Source: a bacterium (GTDB taxonomy: Bacteria > T1Sed10-126). From it: 6,455 bases of DNA. Location of the stretch: the NCBI GenBank assembly GCA_003557545.1, contig PWOD01000066.1:1-6455 (forward strand). Direction: 5' to 3'. Below the pieces are notes generated by a model that saw only the letters and a program-made list of their open reading frames with translations, did not search any database and had not been told where the DNA came from. The first letter of the stretch is position 1. Every line of letters starts with the position of its first letter. The position numbers were made by a program, and so were the translations under genes. Positions 1,560 through 4,551 of this stretch are shown piece by piece.

Positions 1560-1568
1560 TGATTGATC

Positions 1569-1874
1569 ATGCGTCTTAAGTTGCTGGTAGTGGTTTTGAG
1601 TCTGGTATTATTTGTTGCTGGTTGTGCTACCCAGCAGATGGATCTTGCCGACGGTGTGCCGGATAGAGCTCGTGCCGAGCATGAGGAGTGGCAACATTTC
1701 TTTATTTTTGGTCTCGCTCCAGGCAGCCACAGGGTACAGGCTGAGAATTATTGTCACGGTGGAACGATTGGTCGGGTAGAGACTGAATTGACCTTTTTAA
1801 ACGGTCTTTTGCATGGTCTTACATATGGGATTTATAGTCCTTATACTATGCGGGTATACTGTTTGCCTCAATAA
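1569..1874 (+). CDS. Bor/Iss-family lipoprotein (lambda Bor-like)
   Basis: This is a 101-residue predicted outer-membrane lipoprotein. A lysine-bearing start and hydrophobic helix (residues 3-17) lead to a clear lipobox, VAGC, with lipidated Cys19; Ala at +2 is compatible with outer-membrane sorting. The mature part matches phage lambda Bor along its core. QHFFIFG (42-48) corresponds to HHFFVSG, VETELTFLNGLL (70-81) to VKTETQQTFVNGLL, and YGIYSPYTMRVYC (86-98) to the LGIYTPLEARVYC ending. Cys62 (YCHGG) and Cys98 align with the two Bor cysteines and may form a disulfide. Bor, a lysogeny-expressed gene, and its Iss homologue are linked to serum resistance in Escherichia coli; in this host the role is unknown. 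The start is ATG 1569, chosen by ribosome-site spacing. The gene has its own promoter and probably its own terminator, and no other phage gene is seen near it. The family call is from recalled sequence, not a search. Confidence 0.87.
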   Translation: MRLKLLVVVLSLVLFVAGCATQQMDLADGVPDRARAEHEEWQHFFIFGLAPGSHRVQAENYCHGGTIGRVETELTFLNGLLHGLTYGIYSPYTMRVYCLPQ

Positions 1875-1963: not shown

Positions 1964-2206
1964 TTAAAAACTGTCCTTTAACTGATCGGTGTAATGGAGA
2001 GTTTTTAAAGCTTCATCTTCGTCTATCATTGCGATTGCGCAGCCAGCGTGAACAAGCAGGTAATCGTCAGGTTTGGCTGCTGGGAGGTAGTTTAGAACAA
2101 CTTTTTTTTTAACCCCTGAAAAATTTACTATTCCCAGTTTGTCGTGGGAATTATGCTCAATAATTTGTTCAAGTTTACCGGGAATACCAAGACAGATCTT
2201 AACCAT
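1964..2206 (-). CDS. hypC: HypC/HupF family hydrogenase maturation chaperone
   Basis: HypC is a small cytosolic chaperone that, with HypD, carries the Fe(CN)2CO unit and delivers it to the precursor of the [NiFe]-hydrogenase large subunit. The sequence has the family signature CLGIPGK at the N-terminus, a beta-barrel-like core (LGIVNFSGVKKKVVLNY) and the hallmark LLVHAGCAIAMIDEDEAL, which contains the conserved His. A Cys replaces the aromatic residue usual after HAG. The protein is 80 residues from ATG 2206, but that start puts the catalytic cysteine at position 5, whereas the family needs it at position 2 (exposed when Met is removed). The AGAGGAG ribosome site also directly abuts this ATG. 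ATC at 2195-2197, nine bases further on, would give a 77-residue MCLGIPGK protein and is the likelier true start; in that numbering the conserved residues are Cys2 and His50. An in-frame TAG upstream excludes a longer form. The gene lies 53 bases after hypF. Confidence 0.93.
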   Translation of the reverse strand: MVKICLGIPGKLEQIIEHNSHDKLGIVNFSGVKKKVVLNYLPAAKPDDYLLVHAGCAIAMIDEDEALKTLHYTDQLKDSF

Positions 2207-2213
2207 CTCCTCT
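2207..2213 (-). promoter_or_regulatory. Ribosome binding site that contradicts the ATG start of hypC
   Basis: Read on the minus strand this is AGAGGAG, ending at the base next to ATG 2206, so spacing to that ATG is zero. Spacing to the ATC codon at 2195-2197 is 9 bases, within the working range. The site therefore argues for initiation at ATC, in agreement with where HypC needs its N-terminal cysteine. Confidence 0.6.
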
Positions 2214-2259
2214 AAAAGAAAAATATAATGGATCTAATAATTTTAACGGACTATTAAAT

Positions 2260-4551
2260 TTAATCAACTATATTAGCTCCGGCAATAGCTGCCTGGCCCA
2301 CAGAAATTCCGCCATCGTTGGCGGGTATTTTACTGTGCATTATAGGTTTAAACCCCCGTTTTATAAGTGAGTTCTGGGTTAATTCAGTAAGAAGTCTGTT
2401 TTGAAAACAGCCCCCGGTTAAAGCTACGATCTGCTGATTTTGTAAGGTTGCTAGGTCGCCAATCATCTCGGCCAGGCTATTATGAAATTTACGGGCAATT
2501 ATTGACGGTTCTACTCTGGATTGAAGCTGTTCAATAATACTAATAATAAGGGGTTCCCAATCAAAAATATATTTTGTTTCTTCTGCTGAATGATTTTCTA
2601 TTAAACAATAGGGTAACAGTTCCCCGGTTGAAGATTTTTCTGCCAGGTTTTCCAACAAAACAGGAGCCTCCCCTGGATAGTTATTCTGTCCGGTTAATCC
2701 TATTAATGCAGCCACGGCATCAAATAGTCGGCCCGCGCTTGAAGATATTGGAGAATTATAACCGCTCTTTAAAAGATCAATCAGCAGATCGAACTCTTTT
2801 TCAGTGAAAAACTGCTCAAAATTTTTCGGAAGATTTTCCAAACGTCCAATCTCATATAATATACCAAGACAGGCTCTCCTGGGCTCTATTATTGCTTTTT
2901 TTGCCCCGGGTAACGGGAAATGACGAAATCGAGCAAATCTTTGATAATTTTTCAGATTTGCCTCTAAAAACTCTCCCCCCCAGAGGGTTTTATCCGGTCC
3001 ATAACCGCTTCCATCCCAGGCTATACCAAATACTGTATCATCGGTTAAATCGTTATCTACCAGTGCTGAGGCTACATGCGCATGATGATGTTGAATAAAC
3101 AATAGGTTTTCAGGTCGTGTTTCAGCATAGGAAGAGCTATAGTAATCAGGATGTAGGTCGATTGCTAAAATTTTTGGGGAAAATTGATAAAGCTTTTCTA
3201 AATCATTTATACTATCATGAAAATTTCTGATAGCTTTGGTCGACTCTAGATCGCCCAGATGCTGGGAAACTATTATTTCACCGGATGTACGGGTAAAGGC
3301 AACAGTATTTTTCTGTTGAGCTCCAAGAGCTAAAATGCCCGAAGAAATTCCTGGAACGTCGAACGCCTGGGGGGCGTATCCTCGCGCCGGGCGAAGGAGT
3401 TGAACTTTTCGGTTAATAACCTGAACGACTGAATCATCAACCGGACGTTCTATAGGACGATTGTGTAATAAAATGTCATCAGCCAGCAGGCAGGAGTTCT
3501 GGAGTAGATCAGCATTACGAAAATATAATGGTTCACCCGATAGATTGGCGCTGGTTGCTACGATTGGTTTTGAATATTTGGAAGCTATCAGACTGTGCAG
3601 CGGTGTGCAGGGCAGCATAACACCTAGCCTGTCAACCGCCGGTGCAACCATGTGGGAGATCGAACTGGCAGACTTTTTTTGTAATAATACTATTGGAGCC
3701 GCTGCCGATTCTAACAGTCGCCGGCCAGTTTGGCATAAATGGCAATCATTTTCTATTGCAGTAATATTCGGATAAAGTAAGGCCAGAGGTTTTACAGGCC
3801 GGTTTTTATTTTGCCGCAGCCGTTTTATTGTATCTGTTTTATGGGCATCTGCCAGTAGTTGAAATCCACCAAGTCCTTTCAGGGCCACAATTTTCCCCTG
3901 CTGCAGCGATTTGCAGAGAGTAGAAATTATTCCTTCAACGTCGGTTATCGGCTGTTGTTTATGATTTTTGTACCAGAATAGCGTTGGCCCGCATTGTGGA
4001 CAGGCGTTAGGCTGGGCATGGAATCTTCGATCCAGAGGGTTTTCATACTCCTCCCGGCAAAATTTACAGAGTTTAAAATTATTCATTGAGGTATGAGGTC
4101 GGTCATAAGGTAATTTATTGATAATAGAATAGCGAGGTCCACAATCGGTGCAGTTAGTAAAAGCATACTGATATCGACGGTTTTCCAGGTCAAAAACTTC
4201 CTGGTAACAGTTTCCGCAGGTGGCCAGATCGGGCACTATTTGAACCTTGGGTGGGCCGGAGTTGGTACTTTTTTTAATCGATAATTTATCGTAATTAACA
4301 GGCTCAAGGTAAGTTTTGGTAATGGTATTAATTTGGGCGGCGGGGGGGTGGTGGTTCTTCAGACCATGCTCAAACTCATGCAGCTGTCGGTGGTCCCCTT
4401 CCACCTCAATCTCTAGACCCTGCGATGAGTTGCAGACCCAGCCAGTTAAGTTCAAACTGGTTGCCAATCGATAAACAAAGGGTCTGAAACCGACTCCCTG
4501 GACAGTGCCGTAAACCTTAAAATAACACCGTTTTATTCCCCTGATTTTCAC
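2260..4551 (-). CDS. hypF: HypF carbamoyltransferase, hydrogenase maturation
   Basis: HypF uses carbamoyl phosphate and ATP to make carbamoyl-AMP and passes the carbamoyl group to the C-terminal cysteine of HypE, the source of the cyanide ligands of [NiFe] hydrogenases. All domains are present in the standard order over 763 residues, a normal length. They are: an acylphosphatase domain (about 8-95) with GTVQGVGFRPFVYRL at 15-29; paired C4 zinc fingers with Cys112/115, 134/137, 162/165 and 184/187; a YrdC-like domain (about 205-390) with KGLGGFQL, KPLALL and TSANLSGEP; and a Kae1-like domain with IQHHHAH (486-492), WDGSGYGPD (512-520), WGGEFL (524-529), GGCFQNRL (713-720) and NDGGISVGQ (745-753). 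The start is GTG, preceded by CAGGAG at 8-base spacing. It lies 90 bases after gpmI and 53 before hypC. No key residue appears missing. Confidence 0.97.
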   Translation of the reverse strand: MKIRGIKRCYFKVYGTVQGVGFRPFVYRLATSLNLTGWVCNSSQGLEIEVEGDHRQLHEFEHGLKNHHPPAAQINTITKTYLEPVNYDKLSIKKSTNSGPPKVQIVPDLATCGNCYQEVFDLENRRYQYAFTNCTDCGPRYSIINKLPYDRPHTSMNNFKLCKFCREEYENPLDRRFHAQPNACPQCGPTLFWYKNHKQQPITDVEGIISTLCKSLQQGKIVALKGLGGFQLLADAHKTDTIKRLRQNKNRPVKPLALLYPNITAIENDCHLCQTGRRLLESAAAPIVLLQKKSASSISHMVAPAVDRLGVMLPCTPLHSLIASKYSKPIVATSANLSGEPLYFRNADLLQNSCLLADDILLHNRPIERPVDDSVVQVINRKVQLLRPARGYAPQAFDVPGISSGILALGAQQKNTVAFTRTSGEIIVSQHLGDLESTKAIRNFHDSINDLEKLYQFSPKILAIDLHPDYYSSSYAETRPENLLFIQHHHAHVASALVDNDLTDDTVFGIAWDGSGYGPDKTLWGGEFLEANLKNYQRFARFRHFPLPGAKKAIIEPRRACLGILYEIGRLENLPKNFEQFFTEKEFDLLIDLLKSGYNSPISSSAGRLFDAVAALIGLTGQNNYPGEAPVLLENLAEKSSTGELLPYCLIENHSAEETKYIFDWEPLIISIIEQLQSRVEPSIIARKFHNSLAEMIGDLATLQNQQIVALTGGCFQNRLLTELTQNSLIKRGFKPIMHSKIPANDGGISVGQAAIAGANIVD

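Follow-up and report, generated by a model that had tools for sequence, protein, structure and literature searches.

Where does translation of hypC begin at this locus? The window, i.e. the whole stretch of 6,455 nucleotides that was analysed (contig C135 of a 2.15 Mb assembly in 239 contigs, 92% complete), carries the gene on the minus strand, and its only ATG directly adjoins the ribosome binding site. An earlier note had proposed a start at ATC, the codon immediately before a cysteine codon. This interpretation was supported by a genome of a sister genus, which has ATC-TGT and lacks any canonical start. Judged from these sequences, hypC of the lineage is very likely translated from AUC, a very rare start codon, with fMet then removed to leave Cys2. 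The features of the locus are as follows.

6177-4642, minus strand: phosphoglycerate mutase gene (iPGM), encoded on the same strand as hypF and hypC
2260..4551, minus strand: hypF, upstream of hypC and in the same orientation (Pfam Acylphosphatase, zf-HYPF, Sua5_yciO_yrdC, HypF_C; the GTG start is the ORF caller's proposal)
2234..2236, minus strand: in-frame TAG 5' of hypC, by codon reading of the minus strand
2207..2213, minus strand: Shine-Dalgarno (SD) motif AGAGGAG; from the end of AGGAG, 9 nt to ATC and 0 nt to ATG 2206
2204..2206, minus strand: putative decoy ATG adjoining the SD, which would yield MVKICLGIPG with Cys as residue 5; not conserved in the sister genus
1964..2197, minus strand: hypC as proposed, with ATC start, 77 codons and stop TAA (Pfam HupF_HypC, E=1e-19)
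2195..2197, minus strand: proposed AUC start codon, immediately 5' of TGT (Cys2); ATC also in the sister genus
2192..2194, minus strand: TGT codon of the essential Cys2 (for its role, PMC12134894, PMC11565642)

Read on the minus strand, the 5' region of the gene is TTTTAGAGGAG-ATG-GTT-AAG-ATC-TGT, and the fuller leader reads TAG ATC CAT TAT ATT TTT CTT TTA GAG GAG ATG GTT AAG ATC TGT CTT GGT ATT CCC GGT. The reading agreed with the earlier note in each particular: AGAGGAG touches ATG 2206 with no spacer, a start there would make the Cys of CLGIPG the fifth residue, ATC (2197-2195) directly precedes TGT (2194-2192) nine bases after AGGAG, and upstream the TAG at 2236-2234 is reached before any other ATG, GTG or TTG. 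The gene is present in a single copy in the window's genome. Its product belongs to the HypC family by profile match to PF01455 (HupF/HypC), scoring 70.9 bits where the curated cut-off is 28.5; the sister HypC scored 92.5 bits.

The comparison was based on two genomes of the phylum, from two genera, with assemblies broken into 239 and about 120 contigs. The sister genome (G001; public record PWHN01000062.1, isolate T1Sed10_126) belongs to a genus other than the window's. The 5' region of its hypC is AAAGGAGG-ACTAACT-ATC-TGT, within the fuller leader TGA TAG CTT GAT AAA GGA GGA CTA ACT ATC TGT TTG GGA ATA CCG GGA. Between the upstream stop and the Cys codon we found no ATG, GTG or TTG at all, and the end of AGGAG lies 8 nt from ATC. 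Thus, to the question, raised in the earlier note, whether relatives carry ATC or ATG before TGT, the one relative of the phylum examined answers with ATC. A usable canonical codon at the conserved N-terminus is lacking absolutely in the sister genome, while the only ATG in the window adjoins the SD. The near-cognate ATC is conserved in the two genera together with a properly spaced SD (9 and 8 nt).

The two HypC proteins are 58% identical over the matched stretch (44 of the 77 positions end to end). Mismatches in the 77 codons fall mainly at position 3, with 27, 17 and 55 at the three codon positions, and ATC-TGT is unchanged although 55 of the 77 third positions differ. We observed that conservation sets in exactly at ATC; the preceding 60 nt match at 14 of 60 positions, which is the chance level. 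The ATG at 2206 has no counterpart in the sister genus, where CTA ACT stands at the last two positions of the unconserved MVK extension.

As a reference for SD spacing we took orthologue pairs of both genomes in which the conserved N-terminus has a single candidate canonical start nearby; 84 of these starts had an SD run of 5 nt or more. The distance from AGGAG to the start had a median of 9 and fell in the modal range of 8-10 in 58 cases; a spacing of 1 occurred once and a spacing of 0, that of ATG 2206, in none of the 84. An RNA fold hiding or exposing the hypC start was not seen beyond the level of shuffled sequences (z 1.6 and 0.4).

The HypC family itself constrains the start. The N-terminal residue C2 is indispensable and, jointly with C41 of HypD, carries the iron group; E. 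coli HypC loses its Met1 (PMC12134894, PMC11565642), as the earlier note had assumed in holding that Cys2 must be exposed by Met removal. A product of the window's hypC with the N-terminus MVKIC would therefore conflict with the biochemistry. Wherever the motif was located in other hypC genes, ATG preceded Cys, in 70 of 70 loci spread over many bacterial and archaeal phyla; therefore, the start codon belongs at the position right before Cys. In both genomes that position in CL[AG][IV]PG is occupied by ATC (ATC-TGT), and the Cys codon follows the start directly provided that ATC is the start, as we infer. E. coli HypC and HybG share with the window gene the family, a Cys2 right after the start codon and the HAG motif, whereas their start is a canonical ATG (ATG-TGC). 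A pattern scan of 386 genomes (GGAG, 4-10 bases, ATA, ATC or ATT, then the HypC start motif) gave matches in seven, and these were HypC only in the two genomes of this phylum; the matches in the five other genomes were rejected, the genes not being HypC.

A start at ATG 2206, giving MVKICLG... with a three-residue N-terminal extension, would use the sole canonical start in the window, and some initiation could occur there if the window is taken alone. Nonetheless we consider it unlikely as the start of hypC: its zero spacer is without precedent among the reference starts, the sister genus has no start at this place, and Cys would be moved off residue 2, against all of the other loci and the essential role of Cys2. 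The earlier note had held that a conserved MVKIC N-terminus in relatives would speak against ATC; in the sister genus the extension is missing. As its own alternative the note had offered a single-base error turning ATG into ATC, for which the fragmentation of the window's assembly could be cited. For this, two divergent assemblies would have to have been hit independently at one and the same codon, and the chance of it is negligible. Because ATC-TGT recurs in an independent 58%-identical orthologue whose third positions have changed so widely, the error reading is excluded for practical purposes, and the odd start codon is almost certainly real.

The automatic gene caller places the sister start at the TTG after Cys (MGIPGE...), and a start of this kind would leave both hypC genes without a functional Cys2. 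This is highly improbable: the SD spacing to TTG would be 14 nt, found in 3 of the 84 reference starts, the window has CTT at that codon, and the start would delete an essential Cys whose codon is conserved in a protein under purifying selection. Only marginally less improbable is decay of hypC in this lineage with loss of the start codon. Consistent with decay, the [NiFe] large subunit (PF00374) was not detected in the window's 92%-complete genome, which has hypC, hypF and hypD. Against it, the hypC frame is open with its motifs kept, the mismatch pattern indicates purifying selection, and both genera have kept ATC behind a good SD; each genome also carries hypD, and the sister genome encodes a large subunit with the motifs RICGIC and DPCYSC.

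Initiation at AUC, the preferred reading, might proceed as follows. The strong SD (AGGAG, 8-9 nt away) would place AUC in the ribosomal P site and compensate for the weak codon, the ATG inside the SD zone of the window being too close for use. The ordinary CAU initiator tRNA would pair with AUC at codon positions 1 and 2 and insert fMet, and the predicted removal of fMet would expose the N-terminal Cys, which is expected to bind the Fe(CN)2CO group with HypD. In E. coli, AUC initiates poorly. IF3 may discriminate against the AUC of hypC as it does for infC, giving low and possibly IF3-responsive HypC synthesis. The earlier note suggested that a start at AUC would limit HypC output compared with that of HypF; such an effect is plausible, and it might be of use to the cell.

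Near-cognate starts are already known; within the literature searched, an ATC start is new for hypC. The start of infC, the gene for IF3, is AUU in E. coli and AUC in Streptomyces. It resembles the hypC case in having a near-cognate AUH codon after a strong SD, and in this lineage infC has ATA. The difference is that infC feeds back on its own product, while HypC is not involved in initiation.

Experimental characterisation of genes with starts beyond AUG, GUG and UUG is confined to very few cases (PMC5472188). The closest proven parallel is Streptomyces sigR, where translation passes over a GTG inside the SD in favour of a GTC downstream and is repressed by IF3 (PMC5472188). In both genes a canonical codon within the SD is skipped, the non-canonical codon is well spaced and conserved across species, and automatic annotation errs. 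For sigR, however, GTC was proven by Edman degradation and mutants and the IF3 control was shown (PMC5472188), whereas the ATC of hypC is deduced from sequence.

We also scanned 242-258 orthologue pairs, from the portions of the two genomes that were compared (0.62 Mb and 1.14 Mb), for a conserved N-terminus that has no canonical start in at least one genome. The scan flagged 14 pairs, from which the near-cognate cases were chosen by eye; the rest were overlaps, leader similarity or a disrupted frame. Besides the ATA of infC, the scan gave truD with ATT (the window's genome again has an ATG adjoining the SD, as for hypC), an LptA-like gene with ATT after GAGGAGG and before a signal-peptide-like stretch, and an SDR gene and a radical-SAM gene, each with CTG in both genomes. 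The truD, LptA-like, SDR and radical-SAM genes probably use these ATT or CTG starts. The near-cognate-start loci are listed here.

G000 (window's genome): L136, L086, L186, L191, L188
G001 (sister genome): L142, L206, L167, L168, L163

The near-cognate rate, about 6/242 (~2.5%), looks high compared to 0/80 in control pairs of other genes, but the difference is not significant. The six flags among the 80 control orthologue pairs were all read as upstream-gene overlap, an ATG further downstream or the interruption of an archaeal hypD. Since the control is small, the difference not significant and the genes not the same, a lineage-wide rate is tentative. With somewhat less than even expectation, we suggest that this deep bacterial lineage may use AUA, AUC, AUU and CUG starts for ~2-3% of its genes, conserved between genera, through relaxed start selection or as a standing control layer, the class comprising hypC, infC, truD and the LptA-like, SDR and radical-SAM genes.

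An altered initiator tRNA was rejected, as the initiator of both genomes is of the ordinary CAU type and has the GGG/CCC stem; an initiator reading AUC was seen in neither genome. Defective IF3 was also rejected, the IF3 of the window's genome being full-length and aligning along its length with solved IF3s. Avoidance of an AUGUG overlap, an ambiguity described in PMC9841429, is not general, because a glmS/asnB-like gene of the lineage keeps ATG-TGC/ATG-TGT-type starts. Two frame interruptions were observed separately. At L238 ~1297 (+) in the window's genome, a polC-like gene carries TAG in frame at a codon that is GAG in the 1440-aa open frame of the sister genome; this may be an error, a strain variant or a real split. 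At L164 (minus strand, ~15101) in the sister genome, a TGA lies inside the apparent signal peptide of a conserved protein (83% identical), and the window's genome has TGT.

The case bears on a maturation gene of hydrogen-metabolising enzymes, the product of which needs an exact N-terminus. The demand for Cys2 leaves one place for the protein to begin, which makes the conserved AUC a clean and checkable example of the near-cognate starts that standard gene callers misplace or lose. It comes from a lineage where such starts may be unusually common, and so bears on how strictly IF3 and initiator tRNA police initiation outside model organisms.

Two archaeal hypD genes are broken at one and the same site (IMHVCGT / HEWTISRFG) by stop-containing segments of 22 and 25 nt.

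L038 ~7305-7330: interrupted hypD, Nezhaarchaeota QNVF01000019.1
L050 ~1826-1853: interrupted hypD, Thermoprotei QMSN01000052.1

In the flanking sequence a 4-bp helix CGGU:GCCG can pair between two 3-nt bulges (ACA; ACU or AGU), and cleavage behind base 2 of each bulge would give back CGTHE. By its sequence the interruption looks like a bulge-helix-bulge mRNA intron; in a limited literature search we found none reported in hypD.

The gap between hypF and hypC is ~50 nt in the window and ~200 nt in the sister genus (L025 5793-6000), with purine-rich repeat-like segments in the latter. At 1563-1874 (+) the window also carries a small lipoprotein-like gene matching the Lambda Bor family (PF06291, E 7e-20).
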